From the NCBI GenBank assembly GCA_037074765.1, contig JBAMDO010000080.1, positions 165,958 through 229,957 on the forward strand: a DNA stretch of 64,000 bases. The letters are read 5' to 3'. The translations under genes were made by a program, and so were the position numbers. The notes under the pieces are model-generated. The model saw only the letters and a list, made by a program, of their open reading frames with translations, searched no databases and was not told the DNA's origin. The first letter of the stretch is position 1. Every line of letters begins with the position of its first letter. Source of the stretch: Mansonella perstans (taxonomy: Eukaryota; Nematoda; Chromadorea; Rhabditida; Onchocercidae). Positions 9,205 through 38,375 of the stretch are shown piece after piece.

Positions 9205-9540
9205 TATATGTCACATTTTGCATTTCAGTATATTTTAGAGTTAATTTCAAGATACATTAGATGAGTGAAAGCTCCATATTAAGATGATATGAGAGAGTCG
9301 TAGTTAGTGATGTAATTTTTATTTGTTTTTTTTTTTTTTTTTATTTCTTTTTATCAGTTTTCTTTTTCATTATGGAACAATGATTTTTTTCCATTTATTA
9401 TCTGTATTATTAGCTTATAATTATAAATTTTCTTGAATCAGTATCTGAGAAATATATTAAATCTTCATTGAAATTTATAGTGAATAAAATATTAGAAGGT
9501 CATTTGATAATTTTCCATACTTATGAGAATTTAAATGACA

Positions 9541-9552
9541 TTCTTATTTCAG
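9541..9552 (+). other. Splice acceptor directly before the large ORF (candidate trans-splice site)
   Basis: TTCTTATTTCAG is followed by TA and two overlapping-register ATG codons (9555 and 9558). This decides the start. The open frame extends 87 bases further upstream only through a TTG codon, and that segment would be removed by splicing at this site. Confidence 0.55.
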
Positions 9553-9554
9553 TA

Positions 9555-12500: not shown

Positions 12501-12971
12501 CGAAATATTTATTATGAACAATTAGGACAAATTGAAAAAAAAGCACCAGTATTAGCAGAATCAGGTTCCGAGCAGAAGATACAATCGGAACTGGAAACAA
12601 ATGATGTTCACAAATATAATGAGACAAATATAATGAGTAATAAGCATTGTCAGCAGAAAGGTCACTTTGATAGGACGTATTCGGATACACCGGAAGAATG
12701 CATGCATAATATTTCCGGGAAGGATAGTTCACATAAGCATAAGCAGGTCGATGCAAAAAGAAACTATTCACAGCAAGCACACAGTGGAATTTCTAATAAT
12801 GTCGAATTACAAGGCAATTATCAGCAACAGCAAAATGGACATCAGGATCATCCATCGAAAAAGCAGCAGAATTCCGTGGATCATTCCAGCGGCGAATACT
12901 ATCAGAACTCCTCCGGTCGACAAGGAAACAGCAAACAAAATAAACGAAACAAGAAGTTACGTAACTTTTAA
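9555..12971 (+). CDS. Unrecognised large single-exon protein, 1,138 residues, probably disordered
   Basis: I do not recognise this protein. It is one uninterrupted frame of 3.4 kb, unusual beside the 50-250 bp exons of the other genes here. No signal peptide or membrane segment is visible. It is rich in Glu, Lys, Asn and Ser throughout. A Lys/Thr/Ser-rich basic stretch (residues about 594-632) contains KSTKKTSSTTIKV. A GGKKRKIG basic patch at about 733 could be a nuclear localisation signal. It is followed by the most globular-looking segment, INFEPLIWTETLMPVYEQIW, to about residue 770. From about 1069 the tail turns Gln/His/Asn/Ser-rich and ends in a basic stretch (KQNKRNKKLRNF). The start ATG is chosen because an acceptor precedes it by two bases. 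An AATAAA lies at 13234-13239. The role is unknown; nuclear or RNA-associated scaffolding is only a guess from composition. Confidence 0.8.
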   Translation: MMDKEDNKVMDDHAELHDRISFDDSALQQCTTNKNDIQQIDEVINLRSITVDNLQHYDEGLLRSKDVPEKETNSVSLQLEFPLTDLAEATSIHIDSILRNQNTISEADNSHSQKPPFTSSDYKAPYEIGAQQPIPFEFENYANQILGQKQTQPFVTANSNIVAEKTNDQVADASALYQVADKSEDQQTMNDEVMNIFEPVKNFSQELQTEKQANFETLHDKENSRRNEAEITDNMLNKNSGNWDSEYQQSEKCKVTTCASNRESANDAEQGFHLFTTENRKSEETAIPGEILYVVPESSEKSQETLVNAEFSKSAHSEKLVTAKIHSVPGVSILKEAVKENIIHRSKTNETNLIMEQVPLVQDRPAKSSTGGKSLEKLNFFESEGRFTPEQNGTSHINEPTKLLIPEYDSQNINPEVLEEMKSGKEFILPSGEKISEQTSINMKAMQIAENAGNMKAIQDEHPEQNESENVHEQALNVTNARHEENMRTSSKCTEMISEDRNNTVYESDALFHESKTVTEEDKKSDSASNISDCKQEMNKQETDENIAVNNGIIKVKCAEFSGSMYKQKKGNDKVIKNELKNIKQNASNNVTKCKSTKKTSSTTIKVTIPTSTDVTKNNQMITVKKMVKKSAVTLPLLSAKSTILEGKTVGQIGLKQTTNVANSNNIKVQRENKKLTKMPNVTSKLTQKTLQQRVITKSKISDKMNAMKFQSKDIKDCEKNRNEMRNDTNELGGKKRKIGAINFEPLIWTETLMPVYEQIWENLEIATKISDKSNGVFEREMEKKPENEMKMKNDHSGTEWAIRENSKLMINEIVKSVNLSNGNEINVPQHSLNEHGKDFILDISDSLKIRKDEKVTVEKEMVADSSSGKREIEIPASIPIRPCEATEMKYQIYLEQKNLETMAGQDIGADTNKNSDDSHENMNECIIPRLKSNSIEAGNETEAVVDEGVGIEDMVQKTEGITENDGKIVPSEMEKSEIKLERNIYYEQLGQIEKKAPVLAESGSEQKIQSELETNDVHKYNETNIMSNKHCQQKGHFDRTYSDTPEECMHNISGKDSSHKHKQVDAKRNYSQQAHSGISNNVELQGNYQQQQNGHQDHPSKKQQNSVDHSSGEYYQNSSGRQGNSKQNKRNKKLRNF

Positions 12972-16216: not shown

Positions 16217-19009
16217 GCAAAATGCAAAATATCATATTCTGTTAAAAGTTTCAGCGGAATTAATTTCACTTATTAAAATTTTCAAAATTCTATTAAAAGT
16301 TAAATTTTATTTATTTTTTGACAAAATTTGACCTTTGTAACAAAAAACGTTAACAATTTGTTTTTTTTTCTTGACTTCTTTCATTGCATTCAATTGATAC
16401 GGTAGTTGCAATTGTTTTCTTTTGTTTTTTTTTTTTTTTTTTTTTTAATAATTATGACCTTTGTCAACTTATCTTATTCGTCATTTTGCCCATCATTTCC
16501 TATGCAATTATTACATTGAGATAAAGGCATAAACACTGTCGTCAGATGTTCATCGACGATGATAACCACTTAAGATATTGGATATTTCCTTTTTCTTCGG
16601 GACCTTTTTAACATTTATAATAGTCCACTTTACAGTAAACTTATTCCTATTTCGGTTAAATAAACATACAAAAAAGCACGAGAATACTATGATTAGGAAA
16701 AGGTAAGGAATGACATGTTGAGTGACTTGATGTCCTTAGATGACACGATATTTGACATCTTATGCTAATCGAAGAGCTTCCACAGATTGTTGTTCACCGC
16801 TCTATGATTATCCTTTTTCGTTGAATATTCTTGTTAACCGTTTCCTTTCCTCTTTTTTCTCGAATTATATTCCAGCTTCAAATTACTACATTTCGGTGTC
16901 TTTTGAATATGTATTTTTGATTGTACTAAACCATTCTTGTATTTTCATTCTGAACAAAAAAAAGAAAAAAAAACCAAATGCTTTTTTTTTCCTTTTGATA
17001 ATTATGCATCTGAAGTAATTATCTTAAACGTTTCACATTTAATTATTATTATCTTAGCAAATAGACATATTTATTAGAGAAATTGTAATGATTTTCTCCT
17101 TCAAACCTAAATTTTACAACAAATTTAAAATTATCTTTGAGATATCAAAAAATATATTTGTCTCAGATTAATTTGACTTAATTATTTATCTTAGATTAAT
17201 TAAAAATTGACCATTTCAATGATCAGTTAAAATATAGCTAAAATTTTGGAATTCGAAGATTTGAAGTTTTATATTTTTGGAATTAGTTTTTTTTTGCATG
17301 CTTTTTATTTTCATTATTTTTTCAATCCCAACTAAATAAGTCTAAAATAATTCAATTTTGAAATACGTTTAATTAATTTATGTGTCAAATTAATTTATTA
17401 GCTAATTTTTTTTATTTTAAATTGATCTTCGAATTATTCTGTAGTTTATCACTGTGTTACACTGAAATCAAATGAGAATATTTGAATTTTAAGTTGAACT
17501 TATGCTAAACAGTCGCAAAAGAGACGTTCAGCACAAGCTGATGACATGTTACATGAACATTTATTGTCATCATTAGTGGTCAATGAATGGTCAGTGAAAT
17601 GAGCCAAAAAGGAATTTGTTGATAGGATAGTCTAAAATTAGCTATGCTAATTAGGTTAAATCAGAGGCTAATTTATTGAAGGATTAAGATTTTGTCTGTA
17701 ATGATTGCAGCTATTGGCAACATCTCTTGTCCACTCTTATGCTAAACTGCTAGGCTTTGTTATCGTTTCAAATATGATGAGAAAGATGAAGTAGAACAAG
17801 GCTCAATATCCATTTACTAATATTTGCAACTTTTATCATCCATTTCATGCTTCTATTGCAATAATAAATCATTTTCATGTGAAATATGTTTACATTCCTA
17901 ATAAGCCAGCAAACCAGAACTTTTTTTTGATTTCAAAACTTCCGGTTTTTTTTCATCAAATTTTTGGTTTCTCACTTATTTAGCAACAATGTTAATTTAT
18001 TGTACACTCAGTTGAAAAAGTTAAACAGTAATAAATTCCCAGCAGTAGTCTTTAGAGGCTATAATACTGTGTACTTAAAGCACTATCATATCAAGATGAA
18101 ATATATCATAAGAAAACTATTGCAGAGAATCTGTTATTGTTTACTTACTCAACTGAGAATCATTTTATTTATTCCCTCTTTTTGTTTTAATTATGATAAA
18201 TATTAAATGACACAATAATCAATTTTATATCATTGCTTTCCTGAATGAATGTGTTTTTTCCAAGACATTTTTTGGCGCTTTTTGCACTATTGGTATTTTT
18301 CTAGTAGTCTTCATATTTCTGAATTGAATTCAATTGAATTGGTCTCACCATACTTGAAATAAGAAATAGAATTTTAGATTCTATATTACTGAATGCTATT
18401 ATCAGTTCGATAAAACAACTGAAATGCAGTAGCAGAACTATTTTAATCATCTCAGTGAAAATTCAATGAATTATGAAGCAATTTCTGCAAACTTTCAATC
18501 ATGGTGGAAAAATATTAGCAGTGCAAAAAGCACCAGAAAATGTTCTAAAGCTTGGAAAAAACATCCATCAGAAAAGCAATGATAGAAAATTGATTGCTGC
18601 ATCATTTAATGTTTATCATAATTAAAATAAAAAAAGGAAATAATCAAAATGATACGGTTAGGATATGATAAGTGCCACTGTGGGATATCACAGATAGAAG
18701 AAATGCCATGCAAAATTTGTTATATTATCAATAATAATTTAAAAAATTTCTTTTTTTTATCTTAACTTGATGAAATTAACAGAAGAACAATTATGTTTGA
18801 TTAAATATCAGAAACTGCATGAAAAAAATTAAATTATAATTAAACAGAAACAAACATCTCTTGAAATTCGTTCAATTGTTATGGATGTGATAACTTACTG
18901 TATTATTCATATTGTCATTTAATTACTTCAAATACTCAAACTGTTCACCTGATATAATAACAGTTTTAAGAATAATTAAAAAAAAGGATTAAGGATCTTT
19001 GTTTTATGT

Positions 19010-19325: not shown

Positions 19326-20419
19326 TGTATTAATTTGCAAATAATTATCGCATTTTGCTACCTTTAATTGCTTTCTCATCTTGATCCGAGAAATATTCCG
19401 GAAAGAAAAGTCATTTACATTGAATCAAAGGGTACACCGTATTTTACGCTTGACAAAATCCGATTTGAGGTAACGTGAGAATGCAGCAGTGATGCTTAAG
19501 GTGCGACGAACAAATAAATTATACGCTCAAGAAGAAGCTATCAAAAATTTCCAATTTTATAATCTAGAAGAAAAATATGTAGAAATACTTTCATTAATAT
19601 TGAGCATGTCCAAAATAAGATTCAAAATGCAAGCTTAGAAAGTAAAAGCTTTGATCATCTGGAAACCAACTAAGGCTGGGATCTGTAGGATGAATCTGTA
19701 TCCTGGATTAATGGCATAAATTAATTGTGGATCGGTGTAGAATTGTTCTAATTCTGATCATTTTTAAAAATTGAAGAAAAGCTGAACATAACAATGATGA
19801 AAGCAAAAATTACATATGCATTACATATACATGCGATGTCTTCCAACTACTTCATATTATCATCGAAACGGCTAAAAATAAACGAAGTTTGATTTATAAT
19901 TCCGGATCAGATGCCATATTTTTTACACTTCGCCTATAATATTGAATGTATAGATATATCAATCTCCCAGTCTTTTTTCTCTTATTACTTCAATAGTCTC
20001 AATTGGTGCACTGTGACCATTTCAAAGGGGGAGGAGGAGCATCGTTTTCGTGCGGTAGTTCATCCCACATTTACCGATACATCAATCAGATGCAATTATT
20101 GGTACTGCAACTGCTTCTGCTGCTGCTGTTTCGCTTCTCGGATAATTTCATAAAAGGTTATCTACACTGATTGTTATCTTCTGCAGTGATACCGTATCTA
20201 ACCTATTTCTTATCATCGAAAATTTATCACAGTCAACAAATTCCATCAATTTGTGAAATCTTACTTATTAAATTAAAACAATATTTTAACATTACATGAA
20301 TTCTTATTTGTAGCACAAAAAATTCGATTGATAGAAAATTCTGTAAGTCAATTGCTCAATCCATCTTCCGATTATTTGTTGCAAACGTTAAGTATAAGAA
20401 TAAAATGGTGAGATTTCAG

Positions 20420-21320
20420 ATGCTATGCGCTGCGTTACTTATCGATAGATTTCCCTCACAAATAGGATATATTCCGTGTTGGGCAACGATACTTTCAAGC
20501 TTTATGGAATTATTTGCGACGAATACTGCTCGAATTGTTCCTATAGACAATCATATTCCCGTTTTCATCCTTGCGACAGAAACCGAACAGAAGACAAAAT
20601 TTATGGATGTTACCATGCAAACATCGTCTGGTTTGTAACTTTTTGCTAAAGAATTTGCAATCAAATTTGTAAATCCCTTTTTTACTTCGTTGCATTAAAT
20701 TTCAGGAATGCAAATGAGCACATCAATGATAGCTCGTCAATTGCGTGACATGGCTGACAGGTTCGAGTATTTCTACATCGAGAATGAACAGCACTCCATA
20801 TGCACACCGGCATCATCAACGTTGCAGTCACAGGTCAGAATTTGTTGCATAATCTCTCGGGGAAGTTATCCCGAAAGGAAAAATAGACTCACTTGAAATT
20901 AAGTAAGTCCTACATTAGATTTTGTGCAAACAGAGCGAATCTTAATAAATACTTTGATAAAATCCCAATCATTCGCTAAGGTTTAAAGTTACAATTATTG
21001 CGCAAAATGCGATTGGCACAGATTTCCGAGAAGTACACAATGACGCATCACTTGAAGATTTCTGAATCTTTCGCATTTTTCTCTAAAGAAATGGCTATAA
21101 ATGATCTAAAAAACAGTAAAATTCATTTTAGTGTTTAATCCCAACTTACCAGTATTGTACAATTTAGAATACCATTTGCGCTTATCATTTGCGCCAAATC
21201 TAAAATTATTTTCAGTCACAAAACCAATCGTTTACAACTTTCATCGCATCAACTGCAAAAAATTTCGTTAACGCTTTATTGGAACGGATACTGGAGCAGT
21301 TTTATTTGAGGAAAAAATAA
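20420..21320 (+). CDS. BH3-only (EGL-1/BIM-like) candidate cell-death activator, copy A
   Basis: BH3-only proteins bind the groove of BCL-2/CED-9 proteins and trigger apoptosis at mitochondria. Proposed exons: 20420-20630, 20706-20833, 21216-21320, all GT-AG with matching phases (1, then 0), giving 147 residues. Exon 2 carries STSMIARQLRDMADRFEYFY. This fits the BH3 pattern I-x3-L-x2-M-A-D-x-F at residues 79-90. The tail (KNFVNALLERILEQFYLRKK) is amphipathic. Exon 1, MLCAALLIDRF onward, is unrecognised. The start is chosen because ATG follows GAGATTTCAG directly, as in the 28808 gene. A further upstream exon seen in copy B (about 38231-38066) is broken here by a 5-bp deletion. Short BH3 matches can arise by chance. 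The conserved exon length and phase in a diverged paralogue argue against chance. EGL-1 orthology is an inference. Confidence 0.68.
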
Positions 21321-22148
21321 CTTGCCTGTCCATTCTGTGCTTATGAGTGATATTTGCCTATTAGATAAGGCCTAGCAATTATAATCAGAATGGTCCAAAC
21401 TTAGTGTTTGCATTTAGAGAACTGATTTGTAGTTGGAGCGGGAGAGAATATGTAAGCTAATATCACACTTTATTTTTTATCAAGTATAAAGTTAATTATT
21501 AATCAATTCATGTATTTATTTTGTGTCTAATTAGTACTCTGTGATAAATTAATAGCCATTAAATGGAAAATTACTCTAAACTCAAGCTAAGCAAAAGTTA
21601 TATCTGTGAATTTTGCGGCGGACAAAGAAGGAGCTTACTATTACTTTTGTTGTATTTGGCTTTTAAATTGAGAAAGTATTGTTAAAATTAAAAGAAATTT
21701 GCAATAGACACATTAATTCATTATTACAATTTATTTCTGAACTTTGTTGGATGCAAGACAAGAGCGCATAAAAATTATAACTTGAAGAGTACGGTATCAA
21801 TAGCCGAAAGATTCAACTGTGCTATTGGTGCCTCTATAAATGACGTAATATGGAGTGACACCTGGTCATTCAACTTTTTCGCTTTAATTAATTCAACTGT
21901 GAGAATTCATTAATCTGAAGCCGAAAGCATTTTTTACTACCGTTTACAAGTGGCCAATGAGTGCTTTAGCACACTGACCAGTCTTTAAAGTTATTATTTT
22001 GCCCACATTTTTTACCGTGAAATGATTGATTCAACGGAATTATTTGTTGCGCCATACGACGAACTTCAGAAAAAAACGATGAAACAGAGGTTTTGAGATA
22101 AATATTGAAATTTAATTTATGGAATATGTAAAAAATTGCAAAAAAGAT

Positions 22149-22324
22149 TTTTTTTCAGAATATTTGTTTATCACAAAATTTATTCTATGCTACCACTGTT
22201 GACCCATCTGACCCTTGATAATAATGTCACAACAACATTGGTCTTAGACAAAGCATATGGTATTTATTTAAGTGCTGTTAAACTCATAATGGTGAAATTT
22301 TTTTGCACTAAGCTTAAGACATAT
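22149..22324 (+). other. Candidate extra exon conserved in both duplication arms
   Basis: TTTTTTTTCAG precedes an open frame of 58 codons that ends at TAT followed by the donor GTAAGC. The middle reads LDNNVTTTLVLDKAYGIYLS. In arm B the same frame is kept to that point, then a one-base insertion changes the end (SAIKAHNGKIFLH and stop). I do not recognise the product and cannot link it to the BH3 gene, whose stop lies about 830 bp upstream. It may be a last exon, a relic, or chance. Confidence 0.25.
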
Positions 22325-22484
22325 GTAAGCTAAACTAACAGTGGACAAAACTAAACTAACTGAAATTCTTTGTAGGTACTCTTTTCCACACAAAATTCAC
22401 ACCTGCGTAAACGTTTGGTGACAAGTGTTGGATGGATAAATAAGAGGAATACTTTTTGTGTGCACTCATATCGAATTACATATT

Positions 22485-25400
22485 AGTAAATAAGAGCTGA
22501 CCACACTTCTAAATAACATCGTAAAAATAATTTATTGTAAAAATAAATCCATTTACAGTTAATTATAATTTAAAATGTTTAGATATGGAAAATGATTTTT
22601 TTAATCTTCGGAAAATTTCCATAAATCATTTTAGTTGTTTTGTTAAAATAAATGAAACCTGTTGCAGTTCAGGAATACTGAAGATATTTTTTCATACTTC
22701 TTCCATATCCAATCAAATGACCAGCATTATACAGAATTTCAATAGAGCATAAGATATTTCCTTGACAGTGAAATCTAAATAGATTTGTTAATTGTCACTT
22801 CTCCCTCCACATCATGATTATAATAGTAATCGTAAAATTCTTCCGATTAATTTGATCCGGTATTTTTATCATTTATGAATCAAATTAAGTAAATTTGCCA
22901 AGCAAAAGGCTTCATTCAAGGCCAAAATGACATACAACCAATAACTGATTATATTCGAAAAAAAGAGAGAAAAAAACCTTTTAGGCGGTTTTGTCGCTAT
23001 ATCGAATTTTGTAATTTTTTTTCATTGACATAAAACATACGTAGTATACTTTTCAATAACATTATCTCATTTACCATTAAGGATCGTCTTGTTAATATTC
23101 ATAGAAACATAATTGTTATAACAAAAGAAATAATTGAATATTAGTATTATCTGAATTACCAGCACAATTGATTGGGTACGAATAAGCTTAGCAATATCGA
23201 TCGTTCAGGATATTTTTATCATTTCTATAAAATGTTATTGAAATTTTTCTAAAAACCACAATAAAATAAATGTGCATCTAAAATATCTCTAAATCTTTCA
23301 TTTTAATTGTGATTCTTTATTTAATTGGTTCCACTTATTCGATTATTTTAATTGATAAAATAAAATTTGATAACATGCTGCATAGCTTTTCTCTTAAATT
23401 ATTAATTTGTCTTTTCAGAATAAAAATTGTAGCCTTTTCAATGAGGAAATAAAATTCAATAAGCAATTGGATGACTATTGCTATATGTTAATTTACATAC
23501 TGCTAATAAACATCTCTGTTAGGTTGAAAATTAATTAAGATGATATAACATTGAGCAAAATCTTACAAATGAAATTAATTCATGAAAACATATAAAATGA
23601 TAGATTACCAATTAGTATAATCGTTCATTGATACCCATGAATTTATAAAGCTGGCAATAATGTGAACAACAATAGTTAAGGATTACTTCAGAAATGTTAT
23701 TTTATAAATTAAAATGGGTCAATGATGTTTTGTCCTCAAAATTAAAACAATTTTTTTAAAATTCATTTAAAGAAAAAAATCATTAATATGAAATAATTAA
23801 GAGCACTAATAAATATATACGCACAAATAAGAGATGGAACAAATGAGTAGCAGAAAACAGAATGTTTTAAATCTAAGCTAACCTCATCACCAATTTGTTA
23901 TGCTATTATTTTCAGTGTTTGATAGAGATTTGCTTTGGACAACAATTCCAATAGCTCTGTATTTCAAGTAATAACTTTAATCGAAAACTTTTAAATGAAT
24001 AACTTTAATAGCATTTGCATTGAGAATAATAAATAATAATTATATAGAAGTATAATAAAATTTCAAACTAATTTAAATCAAACTAAATGACGAATAATAT
24101 ATTCACTGTAATGAAAGATTTCCAAATTTCAGAAATTTATGCTGGATAAAATGGCTAGAAATTTCTTTAATCCTTATGGCATAGATACTGTGCTGTATGC
24201 AACACCTGCTACAGTATTTTTAAAATATGATAAAGTAAGCTTTGAAGTAAGGCGATTATCGAAGAGATAATTGTACATTATGCTATCCTGAGGACGTATT
24301 GAATTGTATCTCATATAATTTATCCCTGTACAATGAAGTACTTATTTAGTGGATAAAGATAGCACAGAACCATCTAAGTACGTCGAAACAATTGATTCAA
24401 CGATCCATAATTGAGTTGTTTCCTTTCCACTACATCGAATTATAACAATTTGATGCCTTCTGCCTCAATCAATCTTCGCTTCGATGACCTTCAACAGTTT
24501 ACATGCTCATTCAAGTAATTTCACAATGTCTCAAAAGAGTGTCACCAATAAAATGATAATAATAATAATCATACATCAACATTATTGTAATATTTTTACA
24601 GTTAATATTAAATTGCTAGATTAAGAATTCAGATATATCTTAAAAAATCATATGATTAGTTCTTCAATTTTTCGTCATTTCTTCGATTTTTTTTCTTCAT
24701 CTCAATTTTTTTCTTCAATTTTTCTTCGGCTAATCATTAATAAATTTCAGCATTTTCAAAGCACTCAACTTATTACTACTTGCTTATTTTATTTAATAGT
24801 AATAAAAATTTGTGAAAATGTAAATTTCAAAATTTTTATTATTCAAACAGAATCCACCATAATTTTTTTGGAAGCGAATAAAATTATAATAAAAACACCG
24901 CACAAGCCATATTTTAACAATCACAAGTCTTTCTCTCCCATGCAATTGTCATATAATTGCTATAAAATACATCAACCATTTTTTGGATGAAGCTGAAGCC
25001 ATTAACATTGATTTAACTATTTCGAATGCATTATAAAATTTATTGAATAAGCATTAAATTTCAGAGAGGAACTGTAACAAATTTCGAAAATATTTTCTGT
25101 TGCATAAAGTTTCGCGTGAAAAAAATAAACAAAATTCAATTTTTGCAATTTAATGATGAAAACCCATTGAAAACTAATTTTCAAGTCTAAAAAAGATCAG
25201 AAAAATCAAAAAAGTTTATTTAGCTATAAATTTCATAGTACAAAAACTATTACTGCTATACAATAATTGTTGTAAAGGAAAAAACTCAAGTTCGTAGCGT
25301 AATAACAAAATTTCATTACTGTTTCAATTTTAATTCATTTAGCAGTTGATATTTTGAAATGGCGCAGTTGAAATGAAATAAACCAAAACGCTTAATCAAA

Positions 25401-28400
25401 CAAGTCGGAGGAAGAAGCGAGATTGAAAAATTTGAAATCTTTTGAAAACTCAGATTTTTGATCGATAAATTTATTAATAAATGTAACATGAGTGCTCTTT
25501 TCCTTACAAGTTGATTTCTCTTTGTTTTTCGAATTTCACAATTTTTTTTTTTATTCTTTGCCACGATTATTTAGATTTCAGTCAGAAAAAAATTTCCAAA
25601 ATGTCTATCAATTTCTTCTTATGTCCTTTGTTTCTTTCCAAGCAAATCCTTTCTTTTTTAATCAGCAAAAAAAAATTGTTTCAATTTTATGCAAATTTGA
25701 TTTTTTTTTTCGACGATATGGCAGTGATGACTAACGGATATGCATATTGGTTTTAATTTTTTTTTGTTGGTAAGCAAAATATAATTTCTTTGTTTATCGT
25801 CAATTAAAATGACCGAATGTCCAGACCATTTAGTGAATTTTCAAATATTTAATTGCTATTTTTCAGCGTCCTAGCTATCATCGTTCATTCAGTGACTGAT
25901 TGACTATAACTTCAGCAACACTGAATGCTTTTTTTTGGATTTTTGAAATGACTATCTGAACAGGTTAAGTTAATTCTTGTTCCTTTCTCGCTAAAAAAAA
26001 AATTAATTCACAAGAAGCCAAGTATTGTCGTGAAATTCTCACAATAAAAAATTTGAAATGATATTATTATCTAAAAGCCATGAAATTGCATTAGCATTTA
26101 ATTGAAATAATGAAATTAACGCAAAAGGAAAATTGATAAATGAAAAAAAAAATTTGAGAAATAAAAAAGAATTTCATCAAATATTTTATTGTACTAATAA
26201 CTATCTATTAGAATTTCGTATGCTGTAATTCATTTAGAATACTTTGCATAAGGAAACAGTGAAGTATAATTTCAGTTAATTCTTTCAAACTTTAACTGAT
26301 TTGAGTTGTATGAAGTTAAGGAAAGCAAAATGACTAACTGTAACCTCAGGTAAGCTAAGTAGTCAATCGATCATCGCTATTTTTGTCATTATTTAGCGTG
26401 AGAGAATCCATTATTTATCGGAGAAATCCTATCCAGCAGAGGACATTTAATTGTTAATTGCTAGACAGATGGATAGGACAACAGAGGACAGAGCTTTCTC
26501 AAATACCGACTGACCGATTCAAATGACTTTATGTTTCTATTATTTCAATAATTAGGGAAATTACCTGAGAGTATTGCAATGAATAGATGAAAGAAGCTTT
26601 ATTTATCTCACTAGCTTGAAAAATTAGCATTATTATTCTAGAGACAACAAATAGCACAAAAGTTTGCATTATCTATAAAGAAACTATTTGCTGTAGAAGT
26701 ATCGAATATCGAGAGTTCTTGATTTCTTCAATAAAATATAACTTAGATTTTAACCAATAATTCTTTTAATACATCAATGACAAACTATAAATTTTACAAT
26801 TTTTAACGCTTTTTCAATTATATTAAGATTAAAAATTTCAAAATTGATTAGAAATTGAATTCATTCTTTATTATCGTTGATTTGAAATAAAAAAGAAATT
26901 ACTTAGAACGAACATTTTTATCCCTGTTTAAATTTTATTTTTATTAATTTGATATTAATAAAAAATAAATTAAATTTGAAAAGAAAGAAAAATGAAACAA
27001 CAATAAATTGTTACTTTTACAAGTAAAATATCATACTTTATAGAAGGAAATGATTAGTGATAAATAAACATAAGCAAAATAGATTGTTATCTAATAATGA
27101 CAAAAAGTTTTATCGACCATACTTTACCAGATCAAATCTTCTACTACAATACAATTGGAAAAAATATTCAAGTAATATTGTTTAAGGTAGCCGTGTGACG
27201 TGCTTTATTACAAAGTAAAGGTAATAATACAAGCACATAAATGAAATTAAAATTTTAAATGAAATTAAAATTTTCAAATAATTTTAAATAATAAATTGGA
27301 ATAGCGACTTAACATTGTATTGTATCTAATCATTAAATGTTTTGTTTCCCTAAGATATGAAACAATCGATTTGCATATCGTAACACGTCTCACATTAAAT
27401 TGCGTTTACGAGCGTGAGATTGCGCGAAAAATATCCCCCACCTTAGTGTTCACGATTATTCTCGTCAATTTTTTTCCTGATTATACGTGTTTATTAGCGT
27501 CGATTAGGGTTAGAATATCATTTCACCGATATTTTCTGTTATTTCAATGTTTAACTTTTGATTTGAAAATTTTAAACAATAGAAAAAATATTTCAAAATA
27601 AAATATGTTAAGTAATAGAAGATTTTACAGTGTTAATTGTTTGCCAAAATGCATAGTTTTTTATTCAGTTTTTGTTTCAAAAAAGTAATGTTTAAATAAT
27701 TCAATCTTTCAACTTTTATGCATATTTAATAAAAATGCTATTTTATTTCATTTTTTATTCAAAATTATATTTCAGGATAAGTATGCTACTATCATAATTT
27801 CAAACTTAATTTTCTTATTTTATATTTTTTAATAATCTTTCAATGTGTTATTTTGGTACTAGCATTTTTTATTTCTAGTTATTAATAATTTAAAAATGAA
27901 ATCATATTTTAAAATTCCCTCTGAATTGTCTTTTTTTTTTGCGTATGATTATAATGCTAACTGCTAAAAATTAATAAAGTCTAGCTTGATTTGATTAATT
28001 AACGGAGTTTCTTTATGTGAGAGATTAACCATGAAACAATAGTTGATAATTAGGAATGCTTTGATCGTTAAGAAAAATGCCGTCCATAGAGAATTTAAAG
28101 TACACACAAATACATTCATAATAAATGCAAATGCATACATCTGTAATGAATTGTCTGTGACATGTTCAAAAAATATATCAAATATTCACATAAAACATAC
28201 AGGCATATATATGCGCAATTTCAGGTTTACTAAGGTTGCAGGTTTATTGATAAATAGATGATAAATTGATAAACCTGTGAGAGAAAACTTCCCTTTTTTG
28301 AAGATAAAAAGATTTTATACATCATTAAAATACATAATTAAATATAATACATAATTAAACTTTATACATAATTAAACGTTTTTTTTGATTTAACGAATAA

Positions 28401-28807
28401 ATTGATAGCGACAGTTTGTCCTTGAATATGCCTGTTTTCCAAAATAAGGAATGAGTTAATGATAGAAGTATCGCGACTAAATACCGCTAAATATTGTCTT
28501 AACGAGAGTCAAAGGGCCAAGGATTTGTTATGATACAGAAAAAAAGAATTTTTTCAAAAAAAGAGAAAAAAGAGTTTATATTTCGAAAATAGTTTTAAAA
28601 AGTTCAATCTAGATTAGCTGATAGAAATGATTTCACACGAAAAACGAGCGACTGTTTGATTAAAAAACCAAAATAAATCTTTTTTTTTTAATTTAGAATT
28701 TTAATTTTTGATGCGTAGAATATTTGATATTTTGTTTATCTAAACTTGTCTTTTCAAATGTTCTTGTTTATGACCTAATCTATGCTTTATTTGTCATTAT
28801 TTCACAG
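22485..28807. other. Spacer of the inverted duplication, left part; no supported gene
   Basis: AT-rich non-coding sequence with frequent homopolymer runs. Open frames here are short, T-rich translations (for example around 25490-25756) without splice or family support. Its right end presumably holds the promoter of the BH3 gene that starts at 28808. Confidence 0.6.
28796..28807 (+). other. Splice acceptor abutting the ATG of the spacer BH3 gene
   Basis: TTATTTCACAG is followed immediately by ATG at 28808. This suggests trans-splicing or a 5' non-coding exon and fixes the start. Confidence 0.5.
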
Positions 28808-29929
28808 ATGCATTATACCGGTGGTATTATTGACTATATTCATTTGAGCTACTCGCATGTTCCAACAATTTTTCCCTACGACACTGCTAAATCCCTCAAT
28901 AATCATACAGAATGCTGCATACAGGTAAGTTATCGGATTATTTTATTTTCGGTTCAGCCTGATTTTTGCAACTGAACTGCCTTAAATCATTCTACTTCAC
29001 TTGCCAAACCCTTGAGTGATTTAAAATAAAGGAGAAAGGTCATAGCGAAAGTGTTCGACTTGCATTCTCAATTCAGACTGTTCCGCAGGTCCTTTGTTCA
29101 CTCTGACTGTGAAGTTTCACTATTTTCAGAGTTGTATAAGAATGGACCAGGGAAATTGGATGGAAGAAGAGAATGAGTCGATTATTCAAAAAAGTGTTTT
29201 TCTTGGAATAGGCTTTGGAAGTGATGAACCTAATCGCAATAAAATTATCGATGACCTGAGTAAAGAGACTTTCAAATGTGTTTTAATAGATTCAAATGTT
29301 ATTGTAATGAATTGATTCAACGGATTTGTTATTTAACTGTACAAAAACTTGGCATCGATTTATCGTTCTGTTTTTTACCATTTCATCTCATTTTGCAATA
29401 CTTGATTGACCTTTTGTTTCCCTTACTAGAACATAATAAATCATGTTTTCACTGAATAATAAATCATGCTTCATGTTTAAATCATTCAAGAAATCATGAT
29501 AATAAATCATGTTTCCACTTGTTTTACTATTTATTTTTCTTGCAGGAAAAGAAGAATGGAGCACTGGGATGATTGCTGAACAGCTTCGACGTTTAGCGGA
29601 TGATTTTGAAAATGAATTTCAGAAAGCTGATGCACCCACTGTATCATGTCGAGGCAATAGCGATGCTTCTCATGTAAGTTATCTTTTAATTAACATCTTA
29701 AATGATTCATAATTACTATATAATTTGGTCTACTGTGTTTCATTCAATCATTGATGTACTACATTTACATTTTAATAAGTATTAATTCTCTTACCTGTTA
29801 TGAAAAGTCGAAACTTATTCAAGTAATTAGCATTAAAAAAGGATTCATCAAATTAAGCTATTTTTATTGCAGTTCTTCAACATTATTAAATGCATTACTG
29901 ACATTGCCAATGGACGCCTATTTCAATAA
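28808..29929 (+). CDS. BH3-only (EGL-1/BIM-like) candidate cell-death activator, diverged paralogue C
   Basis: Exons: 28808-28924, 29130-29259, 29546-29673, 29873-29929. Junctions are GT-AG and phases fit (0, 1, 0), giving 143 residues and a stop. Residues 40-80 are acidic and polar. Exon 3 carries EEWSTGMIAEQLRRLADDFE, fitting BH3 I-x3-L-x2-L-A-D-x-F at residues 92-103. The pattern is close to those of mammalian BIM and BMF. Exon 3 is 128 bp, enters in phase 1 and leaves in phase 0, exactly as in copies A and B, so the three share ancestry. The short hydrophobic last exon (FFNIIKCITDIANGRLFQ) parallels the amphipathic tail of copy A. An alternative frame of the last exon would give a very hydrophobic tail but does not fit the phase. 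Expected role: inhibit a CED-9-like protein. Of the three copies this has the cleanest structure. Confidence 0.78.
29432..29518 (+). repeat. Short repeats of AATAAATCATG inside intron 2 of BH3 gene C
   Basis: AATAAATCATG occurs three times, with further AAATCAT words, in the 87 bp just upstream of the BH3 exon acceptor. It is probably simple sequence turnover. Confidence 0.65.
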
Positions 29930-32542
29930 ACCATACGAAAGCAACATTCCCATTTTAACCATGATTTTTATTTTCTTATTTCTCTGTTTTCTGAATTTAT
30001 TACCAAATTCTCACATCTGTTGTAATTATTTTTCTGTCTTCATCAATCTTTGCTTTGACAAGCTGAGCTACTTGCTGTTAATTTCATTTTTATTTCGTGA
30101 TATTAATCTTCAAAGATTTATTTTATATTCTTCTATTTTGAATTTTATCTATGTCCTTTAATTTTCAATATGAAACAAACAATGAAGAATTTAATTATTT
30201 TTCTAATTTCGAAATTTTTGCATTTTTGATTTTTTCAAAATGCTAAATTTTTATATTTCCGGATAACTCTAAAGAGATAAAGTTAAGGAATGAAAATTTT
30301 CATCAACAGTGTAGCGATTTCTTTAACATCTGAATCGTTTCTAAATTGTTTTTTTTTTTTTTTTTTTACTTTAAATAGCTGTAATTTTTTACTTATTCCT
30401 ATATCGATTTCATGTTTGCAATAATATTTGTAACATTTTCGGATACTGTTTACTTTGTTCATTTGTTCATTCATTTATTCCACTATTTTATATATCCATT
30501 AATCTAACCACAGGTGCCTGTATTCTTCCGATGCTTCCATTTGCTTCAGTATTTATCCTTACCATTTACGAAGATTAGCACTTTTAATATTCCATTATAA
30601 TTGCTGGTATGAAATAAGGGATGTTTACCATTTGTAATAAAAAAATACTGAAAGATTTGTGCATATGTTTTGTGCATCTGTCACTTATTTTAATGTCATT
30701 CCATTTGCCGTATTTCCATTTACCTTTCTTATGCTTCTAATTTTTATGAGCTTAGCATAGTTTTTATGTTAATAATGTCAATATCCGGTGTTGAGAAAAG
30801 AAGGAATGCATTCTGTAAATATGTTGTAATTTACTGTTCTAATAATTTGTATGATAAATTGATTGTTTTGATATTATTAGTTATGTCATCGATACATTAA
30901 AAGCATAGAATGTATCTGTTGCATCTTCTTGTCCTATTTCCCATTATTTTAAATTTTGCCTAAATGGCAGTTTTTTTTTCCTCTACACTCACTACGAATA
31001 TTTTGCATCATTGACGGAAATGGACACTCTATTAGCTATCGAGTTTTGTCACCGTAGCAGATGATTCATTCATTCATTCTATTTTCTATTCTAAAAAAAT
31101 AAATAAATAAAAGCAATTTCGTTCATACCCGGACATGTTCTGAAAATAGACAAATTCATCGATGACTTGAATGGTTAAATGGCATCAATTGAACGGATAG
31201 ATTGTGACAACAGTTGTGACAACTGAATATTGATAATTTGCTAAATGAATGACAGTTACCAATTTTTTTTTTTTATTTTAAAAGACACACAAAGGAACGT
31301 ATTTAAATAAAATTGATTTTTCGTCTTCTAAAATAATTTAGAGAAGTAAAATGTAAAAGTACAGTAGAAGATAAGAGAAATGAGAAAGTTAGCTTCATAT
31401 TTTTTCATTTTTACGCTATCTTATAGTTTTATTACAGTTTAACAGTAAATTGAAAATTGCACAATATCAATGAATCTATAATTTAATCAAAAATGTTAAT
31501 TTAATTAATTTTTTCGTTTCATAAATACATTTTAGTTTTGTTTTTTCGAATTATGCAACTGCTAATTACTGTCTGATTTTATAATAAAATGAATTACTTT
31601 TGATTTGTTGGATTAAGATTGCATGAGCAACAGTTTGTAAATCAATTATGTTCCAATTTAACGCCTAAACGATTTTTTTAATCGAGTAAAGCTAACTATC
31701 ATTCATTCAGAACATTGCCGTAAAATGATCCGACTAACACAAGCTGTTTCTTCATTCACTAAGACCAAGTAGATCAAAATTTTATTTGAACATTTGCTTA
31801 ACAATATCTTAATAATTTAAGTAAATCACTCTGAGTAATATCTTAAGCAATATCACTCTGAGTAACAGATTTTTGTTAATCCATTAACTACTGGTCAGAT
31901 AGCAGTAAGAGCTTCTCGCATATTTATTTGATCATTCATGTCAAAGGTCATCTGGATTATTGAATGAATGAAAATGTAAAGAATGCTGAATTGTTATAAA
32001 TTATGCGATGAAAAGAAAAATAATTTAATTATACTATAGTTATAATTATTGGTAATCATTACTGCTTAAGCAAACTAATACTTTGATTGAACTGAAGTAA
32101 ATTATACCAGTATAATATGTGCTTCCAGAACAATGCATTCAAAAATTATTCATTCTATTATCGGATAACTTCAAAGCTACTTTATTATACTTTGGACAAA
32201 CTAAAACAGATGTCTATCAGAGATCAATGAGCATAAGGATGGAGTTCACTTTGTATTTTTCGAAAATTCCATGAAACAAAGACTTACTAGAGTCGGCAAC
32301 GTTCTATTTTTATACCTATTATATGTAGGAAATTGTTGAATGTTTTAAGAGAAAAATTTACTTATTCCAGGTATCAATTATTTGTTTTTCAATTTGAGAA
32401 ATGAAAAGGAAAAATTCTTAACTTCCAATTAATTAGCAAATTAATTTAACATTTTTTTTTTTGAGCTTTCAACATTCCATATTCGAATTATTTTGAAATG
32501 AATTGTAAACTATCAATAAAAATTAAAAATTATTGGATCAAA

Positions 32543-33681
32543 ATGAAAGAAAAATGAAAATTTTGCCAAAATTGCAAGTGTATCATTTGTAGATTTAACG
32601 GAAAAATATTCCGTAACGTGACTGATCACGCTGTAATTACATTTCTTCCTTACTATCCTTTTAAATTACACACACATTATTGTTTTCTATCGTTCACAGT
32701 GAATAGGCTTGACAGAATAAGTATTCCGTCACTGGATCACGTGATTGACCACGTAATGTAGTACTTGTAGCCATGAACATTCCATATTCGAATTATTTTG
32801 AAATGAATTGCAAAATCACATAACACCAACAATACAATATATAGGGATATCATTTAAGATTTGTTCCTTCTTCAAATCTATTCCTTTCACTTCCCAATTA
32901 TTTGTAAATTTCATTTTTTTTTCAGCTTCTTTTTAAATTATATTCAACAATTATTTGTGATCTGATAATTAATCGAAATTCCTTTTAAAACACTTAATAA
33001 ACATATTAGTTAATTTATATTATTCTTTACAATCTTCAGATGTTTCCATTGATAAAACACAGTGGATAAGCAATAAAATTGCAATTAATGAGAAGGACCT
33101 GTTTTCTGATTTGCTGACAGAAATTTCTCTGGAAGAGATGGAATGGAACAGATGGAATGCTCATGGCTGAAAATTGGTTTAAAATTTCATTTCGCTCATC
33201 TTTCATCATTACTCATGCATTTCTTTTAATTTTCTCTTTTGTTTGAATTTGCATTTGAAAAAAATTGAAATTTGTGATATTTTTCTGTTGTTCAATTGTA
33301 AAATTGTGCTAAATTAAATTTTGTTCATCAATTAAATGCCTTAATGACCTCAAATAATGCTTTTCTAATAATTTTTTGCAAATTCAAATCTATCCGCAAT
33401 AGCCCGTTATTTTCTTTTTTCACAATCGATAATAAATTTATGATTTAGAAAATTGGTTAGAGATGCTACCAATACAACATTATATGATTAGTTACGTGAT
33501 TCAGTGATGGAAAAACTTATTCTGTCAAACTTATTCACTATGTACGATAAAAAACGATAATTTATGTGTGATTTAAATGGATAGTAAGAAAGGGTATAAT
33601 TACAGTGTGATCGTGAAATATTATTCCGTTAAATCTACAAATGACACATTTGCAATTTTGATGAATTTTCATCTTTCTTTT
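32543..33681. mobile_element. Element with about 220-bp terminal inverted repeats (non-autonomous, degenerate)
   Basis: The left arm (32543-32772) holds TCATTTGTAGATTTAACGGA, GTGATC/CACGTGAT blocks and TTGACAGAATAAGTATTCC. The right arm (33463-33681) is its reverse complement with many substitutions. About 690 bp of AT-rich DNA lies between and encodes nothing I can recognise. A segment with TTCCATATTCGAATTATTTT occurs both just outside the left arm (about 32474) and just inside it (about 32780). I infer a decayed DNA transposon or fold-back element. Confidence 0.7.
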
Positions 33682-34564
33682 ACTTTTGAATGTGAAGCGA
33701 TAATTTTTAATTTGTTTTTATAAAAAAATTATTTTTTAAATGGCAACTAACAAAAGAAATCATTAATGCTATTATTGAATTTATATATGTCTGTCAATGT
33801 AATGTTTGCATGTGTCTGTTTATTTATGTTTATGTCTATCCTATATGCATTGGGTATATTTCGGTTGATAAGATGTATAAATTACAACTGTTTGTGATGA
33901 TGATCGTTTCGTTGTAATATATATCGAGGAAAAAAAAAAAGTTGAAAATTACGAACTAAACACAAAGAAGAGTGTGTGAAGCAATTGTCTATTGAAAAAA
34001 AGAAAAAAAAAAAACTGAAATTGGTAACTTTGCGGAGCTCACATTAAAATGAATAACCATTTTCTTTTCTTTTTATTTAGATCTTTATCAGTTTAATATT
34101 ACAATGAGGTTTTTTTTTCTTTTTTTTTTTTTTTTTGTGAAAATTCATTTATTTGATTGAGTTCGAAATTTCATTAATGCTTTTGAAAAAAAAAAAAAAG
34201 AGTAAATAAAAGACAAACAATAAATAGTTTTATTTTGTAATAGTCGTTATGAAAATTTTTTTAATTTTTATTGCAGAAGCAATATGTGCAAATGATAGAA
34301 ATAGAAATTAGAATGCTAATGAATGTTTGAGGGAGCAATTAAAAAAAAAAAAAAAAAAAACAAACTTAAATGATTTAATTGCTTTGTACTAACTGTTAAT
34401 TTATCTTACTTACAAAATGTTAGCAAAAAATATTTGCAAAAAGTTTCGATAAATGCTTTTAGCGAATTTTTTTATTTTTTAGTTTTTTAATTAGAAGGCA
34501 AAATTGCGAAATTGCAGATATTGACAAGTCATTTTAATTTATAATTAGTATGGATGTTGACATT

Positions 34565-35600
34565 TGTCAGCATTTTGCTGTATTTTGAATTCAGTCTAAT
34601 TTACTATTTAAAATACTGAATGAGAGTTATGAAGCGAAAGGCCTATTGTCAAAATAGTATGATTCAATTATAAAGAAGACACAGACCGGAATAACAATTG
34701 ACAATGGACGATAGCAAAATTGACAAGTAAACTTCTTAGATAAAATCTTCTGAACTAAACTTTTCAAATTTAGCTCACATCAAGTGAAATTTTCGGGCAA
34801 GATCTCATACTGGACAGTTAATAATTCATTATGAATCATTAATGCTCCTGTTAGAGCGGAAGAGATAAAAAGAAAGGGAAATTTTTCATTTGTCAAATTG
34901 TCTTATCATTCATCAAAGTTTTTGCCTGAACTTAACCAATGCGTACGAATTTCATAATATCATTGGAATCGTAGTAATGACAATTTTTTGTTTTCGACCT
35001 TTTTCTTGATGTGATTAATGGCTGTAAAGTAAGTATTACAATCCGCTACAGTAATTTTTCTTTTATATCACAAAAAATACTTTTGCAAAAAAAAAAATCT
35101 CTGATGATTCGATAGGACAACTTTGAAAATTAATCTCAAAGCTATTAAATACCATAAAGATATCATAAATTAACATTAGACGAAGCAACTAAGACACAAA
35201 AATGTTGTTCGCTTTTAACCTATCTTCATCTTAACTTAATCAATTTTTAATTCAGTCTATAATTTTCTTTTAAAATGAACCAAATGAGAGTTACGAAGCG
35301 AATAATGGTCATTTTCTCTCAATAGTATGATTTATAAAAGAGTGGTAGCTCGGAATAACAACAACAATAACATCAGCAAAATTAACTAGTAAACTTTTCG
35401 AAAATGGGACCTCCTGGAAGGTAAATAATTTAACGAACTTTATACAATCAATAATAACCCTGTAAAATGTAGTGGCAAAATTATAGAAGTGAAATGAAAT
35501 AGATATAAGAGAAATTGTTTTCTTTGTCAAATTGTTTTTAGCGATTGTCAACAAATTCTCTGTAATTTAAATTGCAATCAGTAGACGACATCAATTTCAC
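34565..35600. repeat. Diverged direct duplication, period about 670 bp
   Basis: Blocks near 34590 (TTCAGTCTA, GAGAGTTATGAAGCGAA, ATAGTATGATT, CGGAATAACAA, AGCAAAATTGACAAGTAAAC) recur in the same order near 35250-35400 with changes. Later blocks such as TTTGTCAAATTGT (34894, 35525) follow. No coding content was seen. Confidence 0.7.
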
Positions 35601-37093
35601 TACTTCTAATAGTGGCACATCTTTGACATCTTTCATGGATTGATTGCTGTTCAACAAAAAAAATTACGAAATAATCTTTGTTGTCTTTACATTTTTATAT
35701 TTAGATTTAAAATAGAAAAATGATTTAAAAATTTATGGAATAAGTGATCCATTTGATGTAAAAAATTGGAAATGTGACTGATTCCTAATATCCTTACAAA
35801 TTTTTAATCTAAATTAATCATCTTTTGGGAAAATAAGATGCACAGCTGAAAAGTAAATTTGCTGTAAACGATGTCACTTAGATTTCTGAGCAACTAATCT
35901 CGCCTAACAATATGTAATTCGATACGAGTGTGCACAAAAGCATTTTTCTTAATTATCCATCCAACACTTTTCACTAAACGTTTACGCAGGTGTGAATTTT
36001 GTGTGAAAAATAGTACCTACAAAGAATAACAGGACTGCTGTCCAATTTCGAGGCTATTGCCCACTTCAGTTTAGTTTACATATGTCTTAAGCTTAATGCA
36101 AAAAAATTTTACCATTATGAGCTTTAATAGCACTTAAATAAATACCATATGCTTTGTCTAAGACCAATGTTGTTGTGACATTATTATCAAGGGTCAGATG
36201 GGTCAACAGTGGTAGCATAGAATAAATTTTATGATAAACAAATGTTCTGAAAAAAAATCTTTTTTGCAATTTTTTACATATTCCATAAATTAAATTTCAA
36301 TATTTATCTCAAAACCTCTGTTTCATCGTTTTTTTCTGAAATTCGTCGTATGGCGCAACAAATAATTCCGTTGAATCAATCATTTCACGATAAAAAGTGT
36401 GGGCAAAATAATAACTTTAAAGACTGGTCAGTATGCTAAAGCACTCGTTGGCCACTTGTAAACGGTAGTAAAAAATGCTTTCGGCTTCAGATTAATGAAT
36501 TCTCACAGTTGAATTAATTAAAGCGAAAAAGTTGAATGACCAGGTGTCACTCCATATTACGTCATTTATAGAGCCACCAATAGCACAGTTGAATCTTTCG
36601 GCTATTGATACCGTACTCTTCAAGTTATAATTTTTATGCGCTCTTGTCTTGCATCCAACAAAGTTCAGAAATAAATTGTAATAATAAATTAATGTGTCTA
36701 TTGCACATTTCTTTTAATTTTAACAATACTTTCTCAATTTAAAATCCAAATACAACAAAGTAATAGTAAGCTCCTTCTTTGTCCGCCGCAAAATTCACAG
36801 ATATAACTTTCCTTAGCTTGAGTTTAGAGTAATTTTCCATTTAATGGCTATTAATTTATCACAGAGTACTAATTAGACACAAAATAAATACATGAATTGA
36901 TTAATAATTAACTTTATACTTGATAAAAAATAAAGTGTGATATTAGCTTACATATTCTCTCCCGCTCCAACTACAAATCAGTTCTCTAAATGCAAACACT
37001 AAGTTTGGACCATTCTGATTATAATTGCTAGGCCTTATCTAATAGGCAAATATCACTCATAAGCACAGAATGGACAGGCAAGTTATTTTTTCC

Positions 37094-37982
37094 TCAAATA
37101 AAACTGCTCCAGTATCCGTTCCAATAAAGCGTTAACGAAATTTTTGCAGTTGATGCGATGAAAGTTGTAAACGATTGGTTTTGTGACTGAAAATAATTTT
37201 AGATTTGGCGCAAATGATAAGCGCAAATGGTATTCTAAATTGTACAATACTGGTAAGTTGGGATTAAACACTAAAATGAATTTTACTGTTTTTTAGATCA
37301 TTTATAGCCATTTCTTTAGAGAAAAATGTGAAAGATTCAGAAATCTTCAAGTGATGCGTCATTGTGTACTTCTCGGAAATCTGTGCCAATCGTATTTTGC
37401 GCAATAATTGTAACTTTAAACCTTAGCGAATGATTGGGATTTTATCAAAGTATTTATTAAGATTCGCTCTGTTTGCACAAAATCTAATGTAGGACTTACT
37501 TAATTTCAAGTGAGTCTATTTTTCCTTTCGGGATAACTTCCCCGAGAGATTATGCAACAAATTCTGACCTGTGACTGCAACGTTGATGATGCCGGTGTGC
37601 ATATGGAGTGCTGTTCATTCTCGATGTAGAAATACTCGAACCTGTCAGCCATGTCACGCAATTGACGAGCTATCATTGATGTGCTCATTTGCATTCCTGA
37701 AATTTAATGCAACGAAGTAAAAAAGGGATTTACAAATTTGATTGCAAATTCTTTAGCAGAAAGTTACAAACCAGACGATGTTTGCATGGTAACATCCATA
37801 AATTTTGTCTTCTGTTCGGTTTCTGTCGCAAGGATGAAAACGGGAATATGATTGTCTATAGGAACAATTCGAGCAGTATTCGTCGCAAATAATTCCATAA
37901 AGCTTGAAAGTATCGTTGCCCAACACGGAATATATCCTATTTGTGAGGGAAATCTATCGATAAATAACGCAGCGCATAGCAT
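37094..37982 (-). CDS. BH3-only (EGL-1/BIM-like) candidate cell-death activator, copy B
   Basis: Same proposed structure as copy A, reversed: exons 37982-37772, 37696-37569 and 37186-37094. The BH3 exon encodes the same protein sequence as in copy A (IARQLRDMADRF). The first exon differs by at least one residue (MLCAALF against MLCAALL). In the last exon an A run is one base shorter, so the copy-A tail (NALLERILEQFYL) is lost. The frame instead ends after about 30 residues in YWNGYWSSFI and a stop at 37094. An extra upstream exon is intact only in this copy (about 38231-38066, acceptor TATCTTCTGCAG, donor GTAAGT). Joined to exon 1 it would add about 55 helical-looking residues, but then no start codon is visible. 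It could be functional, decaying, or affected by a homopolymer sequencing error. Confidence 0.58.
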
Positions 37983-38065
37983 CTGAAATCTCACCATTTT
38001 ATTCTTATACTTAACGTTTGCAGCAAATAATCGGAAGATAGATTGAGCAATTAACTTACAGAATT

Positions 38066-38231
38066 TTCTGTCAATCGAATTTTTTGTGCTACAAATAAGA
38101 ATTCATGTAATGTAATGTTAAAATATTGTTCTAATTTAATAAGTAAGATTTCACAAATTGATGGAATTTGTTGACTGTGATAAATTTTCGATGATAAGAA
38201 ATAGGTTAGATACGGTATCACTGCAGAAGAT
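38066..38231 (-). other. Open candidate upstream exon of BH3 gene copy B (frameshifted in copy A)
   Basis: TATCTTCTGCAG leads into a frame that stays open through ICEILLIKLEQYFNITLHEF and FVAQKIRLTENS to a strong GTAAGT donor in the correct phase to join the next exon (intron about 80 bp). No ATG lies at its start, so any first exon would have been upstream of the duplication boundary. In arm A a 5-bp deletion introduces a stop. The product is unrecognised. Confidence 0.35.
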
Positions 38232-38375
38232 AACAATCAGTGTTGATAACCTTTTATGAAATTATCCGAGAAGCGAAACAGCAGCAGCAGAAGCAGTTGC
38301 AGTACCAATAACTGCATCTGATTGATGTATCGGTAAATGTGGGATGAACTACCGCACGAAAACGATGCTCCTCCC

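Follow-up and report, generated by a model that had tools for sequence, protein, structure and literature searches.

In Caenorhabditis elegans, binding of a BH3-only protein to CED-9 sets CED-4 free, and CED-3 becomes active, according to passages of publications that include PMC7456325 and PMC8998228. The first of them, a 2020 study of nematode BCL-2 proteins, names two such proteins of this worm in the passages retrieved, EGL-1 and CED-13, so that the single BH3-only gene credited to C. elegans by an earlier note on the DNA analysed here is one too few; the retrieved passages describe multi-domain Bcl-2 genes and no new BH3-only gene. The second, a 2022 survey, has BH3-only proteins identified in C. 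elegans and not in other nematode branches, as far as its retrieved passages go. For filariae, the retrieved parts of a 2018 paper report an EGL-1 protein detected by immunoblot in Setaria cervi (PMC6089915) and those of a 2023 review mention EGL-1 (PMC10538269), no filarial gene or sequence being named in either; both count against full novelty. Among the matches listed in our search of the open-licence literature, with supplements lying outside the search, none reported a BH3-only gene of a filaria together with its sequence, and the locus names Bm10621, BM_BM10621 and LOAG_14077 were absent from the literature searched. BH3-only proteins are a known kind, and the filarial gene described below is new as far as these literature searches reach.

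The present analysis concerns a stretch of 64,000 nucleotides of Mansonella perstans (contig JBAMDO010000080.1, positions 165,958 to 229,957, hereafter the window), in which three exons, belonging to copies designated A, B and C, fit the BH3 motif h1-x3-h2-x2-h3-(A/G/S/C)-D-x-h4. With good confidence we read the locus as encoding filarial BH3-only proteins that would act via CED-9 on a caspase; in this reading A represents the conserved form, C is a further, diverged one, and B arose recently as an inverted copy of A.

The BH3 exons and the filarial family of copy A

The three BH3 exons are found between 20 and 38.4 kb of the window, at 20706-20833 on the plus strand for A (MIARQLRDMADRFE), at 29546-29673 on the plus strand for C (MIAEQLRRLADDFE) and at 37696-37569 on the minus strand for B, C being placed between the two others. 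Each of them measures 128 bp, has phase 1 at its start and phase 0 at its end, and is bordered by AG and GT; aligning the equally long A and C exons requires one codon gap before the core and one after it. The earlier note had reported a full BH3 pattern three times in a 128-bp exon of identical phase, which our analysis reproduces with one correction, namely that B lies on the strand opposite to A and C because A and B are the arms of an inverted duplication. When the genome to which the window belongs (75.7 Mb, 539 contigs) was searched with exon 1 of A and with the BH3 exons of A and C, no fourth copy appeared.

The main evidence comes from copy A, a short protein whose BH3 has all four hydrophobic positions and the Ala-Asp pair. 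Its exon 1 (20420-20630, plus strand) opens with an ATG right after TTTCAG, a candidate SL1 trans-splice site, and is matched by relatives in nine named species; a further in-frame ATG is present at 20405. The BH3 exon follows as exon 2, and exon 3 (21216-21320, plus strand) encodes a C-terminal tail running to RKK and the stop. A search with the spliced protein returned 15 proteins at E ≤ 1, the best at 1.7e-55. Relatives aligning over 97-100% of the query were found in Brugia malayi (Bm10621), Onchocerca volvulus, O. flexuosa, Cercopithifilaria johnstoni, Dirofilaria immitis and Acanthocheilonema viteae, and over 77-79% in Loa loa, Elaeophora elaphi and Litomosoides sigmodontis, with 62-73% identity to A across the nine filariae when the best row of each is taken. 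Where one species has several rows, these give the impression of isoforms or models of a single gene, not of an A/B pair. The earlier note had looked to related nematodes for conservation of the BH3 exon, and the BH3 of A is conserved in all nine species: 11 of the 12 columns of the BH3 12-mer are invariant in the nine-row alignment (rows of 132-199 aa), making it the joint most conserved stretch of the protein. The end of the A protein, NALLERILEQFYLRKK, matches six of the nine rows, which supports the frame of A, the remaining three models ending otherwise.

Over 77-100% of the length of copy A, Bm10621 and its relatives are the same protein, and they carry the same BH3; copy A displays the features of this family, that is, alignment over the length, a conserved N-terminal stretch, the BH3 and the C-terminal tail. 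Pfam searches on all 11 proteins submitted gave no family below E 0.02, and Bcl-2 was absent from the six weak ones listed. On the two features that can be tested, presence of a BH3 motif and no Bcl-2 domain found, the predicted protein of copy A is that of a real filarial BH3-only gene family. This family is conserved across filarial parasites and has so far been listed as a protein without assigned function, its BH3-only nature being unrecognised in the records examined: the relatives appear as uncharacterised, hypothetical or unnamed. Some of them also carry misleading names (ATP-dependent RNA helicase, COesterase domain-containing, transactivator/viroplasmin).

The strength of the motif was estimated with a profile built from ten BH3s, four of them taken from search results or a paper passage, and scored over every 16-mer without a stop in the six frames of the window. 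The three highest scores were those of C (20.3), B (16.9) and A (16.9), followed by a fourth 16-mer at 8.6; the known BH3s, each left out in turn, scored 14.8-37.9 by the same profile, a range in which two PUMA forms support each other. Of 4000 windows simulated with matching dinucleotide frequencies, 19 had a top score of at least 16.9 and 3 one of at least 20.27; a smaller simulation of 60 windows gave a maximum of 14.2. One BH3 match taken alone is only modestly significant, and the observation becomes secure through the recurrence of the motif in exons of one phase and through the orthologues.

Sequences of the PDB were also compared with a profile of the three exons, giving 28 matches at E ≤ 10 that are individually weak (best 0.028). 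The first 22 comprise 20 chains named PUMA, BIM, BAD or PUMA BH3 foldamer, together with an alpha-beta foldamer and dF4; we take these last two to be BH3-derived, which with dF3 brings the BH3-type total to 23/28 (20/28 by name), and the other five matches are ATF-2, ribosomal L7 (three) and a coiled coil. The C exon alone retrieved nine PDB sequences, eight of which are by name peptides of PUMA or BAD, the ninth being the designed peptide dF3. As controls, one of each kind, a shuffled C exon retrieved none and a reversed one three, none of them BH3. The hydrophobic moment of the BH3 segment is 0.58 in both A and C, compared with 0.52 in PUMA, 0.46 in BIM and 0.29 in EGL-1.

The diverged copy C and the inverted copy B

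Copy C is a diverged paralogue of A and probably a second BH3-only gene. Besides its BH3 exon, it has a probable exon 1 (28808-28924, plus strand), with an ATG right after TTTCACAG and a weak alignment to exon 1 of A, a possible exon 2 (29130-29193, plus strand) proposed from reading frame and phase, with an uncertain donor at 29193 or 29220, and a possible last exon running to TAA (29873-29929, plus strand) drawn from the reading frame, without orthologue support. An ATG directly behind the acceptor, TTTCAG in A and TTTCACAG in C, is as expected of SL1 trans-splicing. The strong divergence of C around a retained motif, as put forward in the earlier note, is borne out by the exon proteins of A and C, which are 34% identical: 10 of the 14 core residues are common, eight of these ten being encoded by different synonymous codons, whereas outside the core only 4 of 27 residues are shared and 23 of 27 codons differ non-synonymously. 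This synonymous turnover with core residues kept indicates that the motif has been maintained and argues for selection on C. Compared with the Bm10621 family, C shows 23% identity overall, clear in the BH3 exon and weak in the rest.

Copies A and B are, as the earlier note had it, near-identical. They stand in two arms of an inverted duplication, arm A at 20033-22484 (plus strand) and arm B at 35909-38374 (minus strand), with 97.1% identity, 47 mismatches and 9 gap openings over 2471 bp (arm length 2.47 kb). The genome search with the arm returned these two matches and no place beyond them, and a repeat element carrying the arms is accordingly not supported. Exon 1 of B (37772-37982, minus strand) differs from that of A by one base and one residue (one difference in 226 bases), its ATG at 37982 standing right after a TTTCAG acceptor like that of A at 20420, and exon 2 is identical to its counterpart in the arm alignment. 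In the exon 3 region of B (37083-37186, minus strand), an A-run is one base shorter than in A, so that the frame departs from that of A and the orthologues; this shortening may be genuine or may stem from an error of the consensus. By sequence, B is a young inverted copy of A with an intact BH3 exon and an altered C-terminus.

The gene part of the arms has 4 mismatches in 916 bases and the flanks (372 bases on the 5' side and 962 on the 3' side) 20 in 1334 (Fisher p 0.02, uncorrected), which may point weakly to selection or conversion. At its outer edge, arm B has an ATG matching the start (MGGA) of one Brugia and one Dirofilaria model, whereas A has other bases there, a weak hint that the site of B is the older one. 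The three separate genes of the earlier note are therefore reduced to two gene types, B being a recent inverted copy in which the last exon does not follow the frame of the orthologues; their designation as BH3-only genes is well supported for A, with its relatives in nine named filariae, and probable for C.

Possible cell-death partners, proposed function and alternatives

The genome provides part of the machinery on which such proteins would act. One CED-9 orthologue was found on contig C533, its best PDB match being C. elegans CED-9 (3.7e-21), and its BH1 stretch SYGRL is in register with that of the C. elegans protein; the Arg of this stretch presumably pairs with the Asp of the BH3, as we assume from Bcl-xL complexes. 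Caspase-domain exons were identified on contig C293 in three matches, two of which read across stops, as expected of introns. No second Bcl-2 gene was found by the genome protein search, and tblastn over about 9.9 kb on each side of the CED-9 locus gave one match at E 0.99 beyond its own exons; other spirurid nematodes have two adjacent Bcl-2 genes according to the retrieved passages of the 2020 study (PMC7456325).

In the mechanism that we propose, the gene would be transcribed and its messenger SL1 trans-spliced to the ATG after TTTCAG, yielding a short protein without Bcl-2 fold; its BH3 would form a helix and dock into the groove of the worm's CED-9, and CED-4 would be displaced from CED-9, the caspase started and the cell killed. 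The same scheme would hold for C, provided that it is expressed. The short basic Leu/Phe-rich tail of A may, as a guess, help membrane contact.

Several results weigh against this proposal. The A exon alone retrieved no PDB sequence, and a profile of the whole protein had a non-BH3 first match (E 0.32), BH3 peptides making up 4 of its 6 matches. N-terminal 12-residue windows starting at 36-38 are as conserved as the BH3. Copy C has uncertain outer exons and no relative in the protein collection, where three candidates came up, none at E ≤ 1, and the new rows of a further protein search were A-type. The Pfam model of EGL-1 (PF11430) had no match in the genome at E ≤ 10 and was not listed for A or C. 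Finally, the six-frame genome search, which can miss exon-split genes, did not detect CED-4 (NB-ARC).

Different explanations could account for parts of these data. That a motif in untranslated sequence arose by chance is suggested by the 19 simulated windows in which a single score as high as that of A was reached, yet it is exceedingly improbable given an A protein conserved in nine species, and for A these orthologues rule it out. The A/B pair could also be an artefact of the assembly, A and C alone being real, since B is very similar to A and its coding sequence is broken by the length of a homopolymer, a kind of error frequent in consensus sequences; we regard this as quite unlikely, because the two arms share a contig but not their flanks and their mismatches and gap openings exceed consensus noise, while the array of SL1 repeats described below suggests a long-read assembly.

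The question of ancestry is a more serious one. C. elegans EGL-1 is, like A, short and equipped with a BH3 through which it would act on CED-9, and it shares with A the phylum and the kind of partner; hhalign places its BH3 correctly in register over 18-19 residues, and A has a short Leu/Phe-rich C-terminal tail after the BH3, as does EGL-1. A and C could on these grounds be the filarial egl-1 proper, a vertical orthologue diverged beyond recognition and later duplicated, and we hold this as a real possibility while leaning somewhat against it: the hhalign probabilities are 2.8% and 9%, PF11430 is without match, A differs from EGL-1 by an extra conserved N-terminal stretch, and no relative named as non-filarial occurs among the protein matches, hence no bridging sequences. 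By profile, the predicted A protein is outside the EGL-1 family, and the "EGL-1-like" of the earlier note would apply at most to its working. The closest PDB sequences are the BH3s of PUMA (BBC3) and BIM, with the C exon and PUMA sharing EEW..I..QLRR.ADD, and among solved peptides these two are the nearest to the motif of A. The likeness to the mammalian proteins is confined to this motif and, as they come from a different phylum, likely reflects convergence or a constraint on a groove-binding helix. It is also conceivable, and in our opinion unlikely, that the BH3 protein has a non-apoptotic main function, e.g. in autophagy or mitochondrial regulation, its motif binding CED-9 for another purpose; the conserved N-terminal stretch without assigned function would agree with this, as would the length of the orthologues, which exceeds that of EGL-1 (91 aa), but the BH3 12-mer is jointly the most conserved part and agrees with PUMA and BIM in its h1-h4 pattern.

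Genomic setting and possible meaning for filarial cell death

The genome contains at least 50 SL1 spliced-leader genes of equal score in one array with a spacing of about 307 bases (contig C518, contig coordinates 7301-22977), and therefore belongs to a trans-splicing nematode. Every relative of the copy A protein with a species name is filarial, and together these two results agree with the "parasitic-type nematode" of the earlier note. Upstream of A (about 20033-20150, plus strand) and of B (38374-38257, minus strand), a leucine-rich frame resembles the N-termini of the Brugia model and of one Dirofilaria model; it was not accepted as coding, the N-terminus of another Dirofilaria model resembling a different frame of the same DNA. 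The 3' regions of A, B and C contain no 7-base seed site of miR-35/36 or bantam, and a single 6-base match to the miR-35 seed after C is read as chance. The Rfam scan of the window gave nothing at the gathering score, none of the 10 neighbouring open reading frames (ORFs) given to Pfam, out of the 78 listed in the window, was matched, and a PDB sequence search with one of these ORFs returned no match. A stop-to-stop open stretch of 1185 residues at 9414-12968 (plus strand) looks low-complexity and Glu/Asn/Lys-rich, and Pfam gave nothing for it at E ≤ 0.01. At 18159-18653 and 32538-33689 there are short inverted repeats, possibly small non-autonomous elements; they measure 73-86 bases, are 79-86% complementary and lie 0.3-1 kb apart.

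Apoptosis after Wolbachia depletion has been shown by CED-3 expression and activation, according to the retrieved passages of PMC3207916, a text in which egl-1 does not occur. It may be speculated that filariae carry lineage-specific BH3-only triggers, with a conserved A and a fast-evolving C, locally amplified and PUMA/BIM-like rather than EGL-1-like, which would fire upon Wolbachia loss and lead to the apoptotic death of tissues; we consider this extension doubtful in its entirety. If Bm10621 and its relatives were indeed the trigger, the question would be open to qPCR, RNAi and peptide binding, and the groove of the filarial CED-9 would gain a defined ligand for assays.

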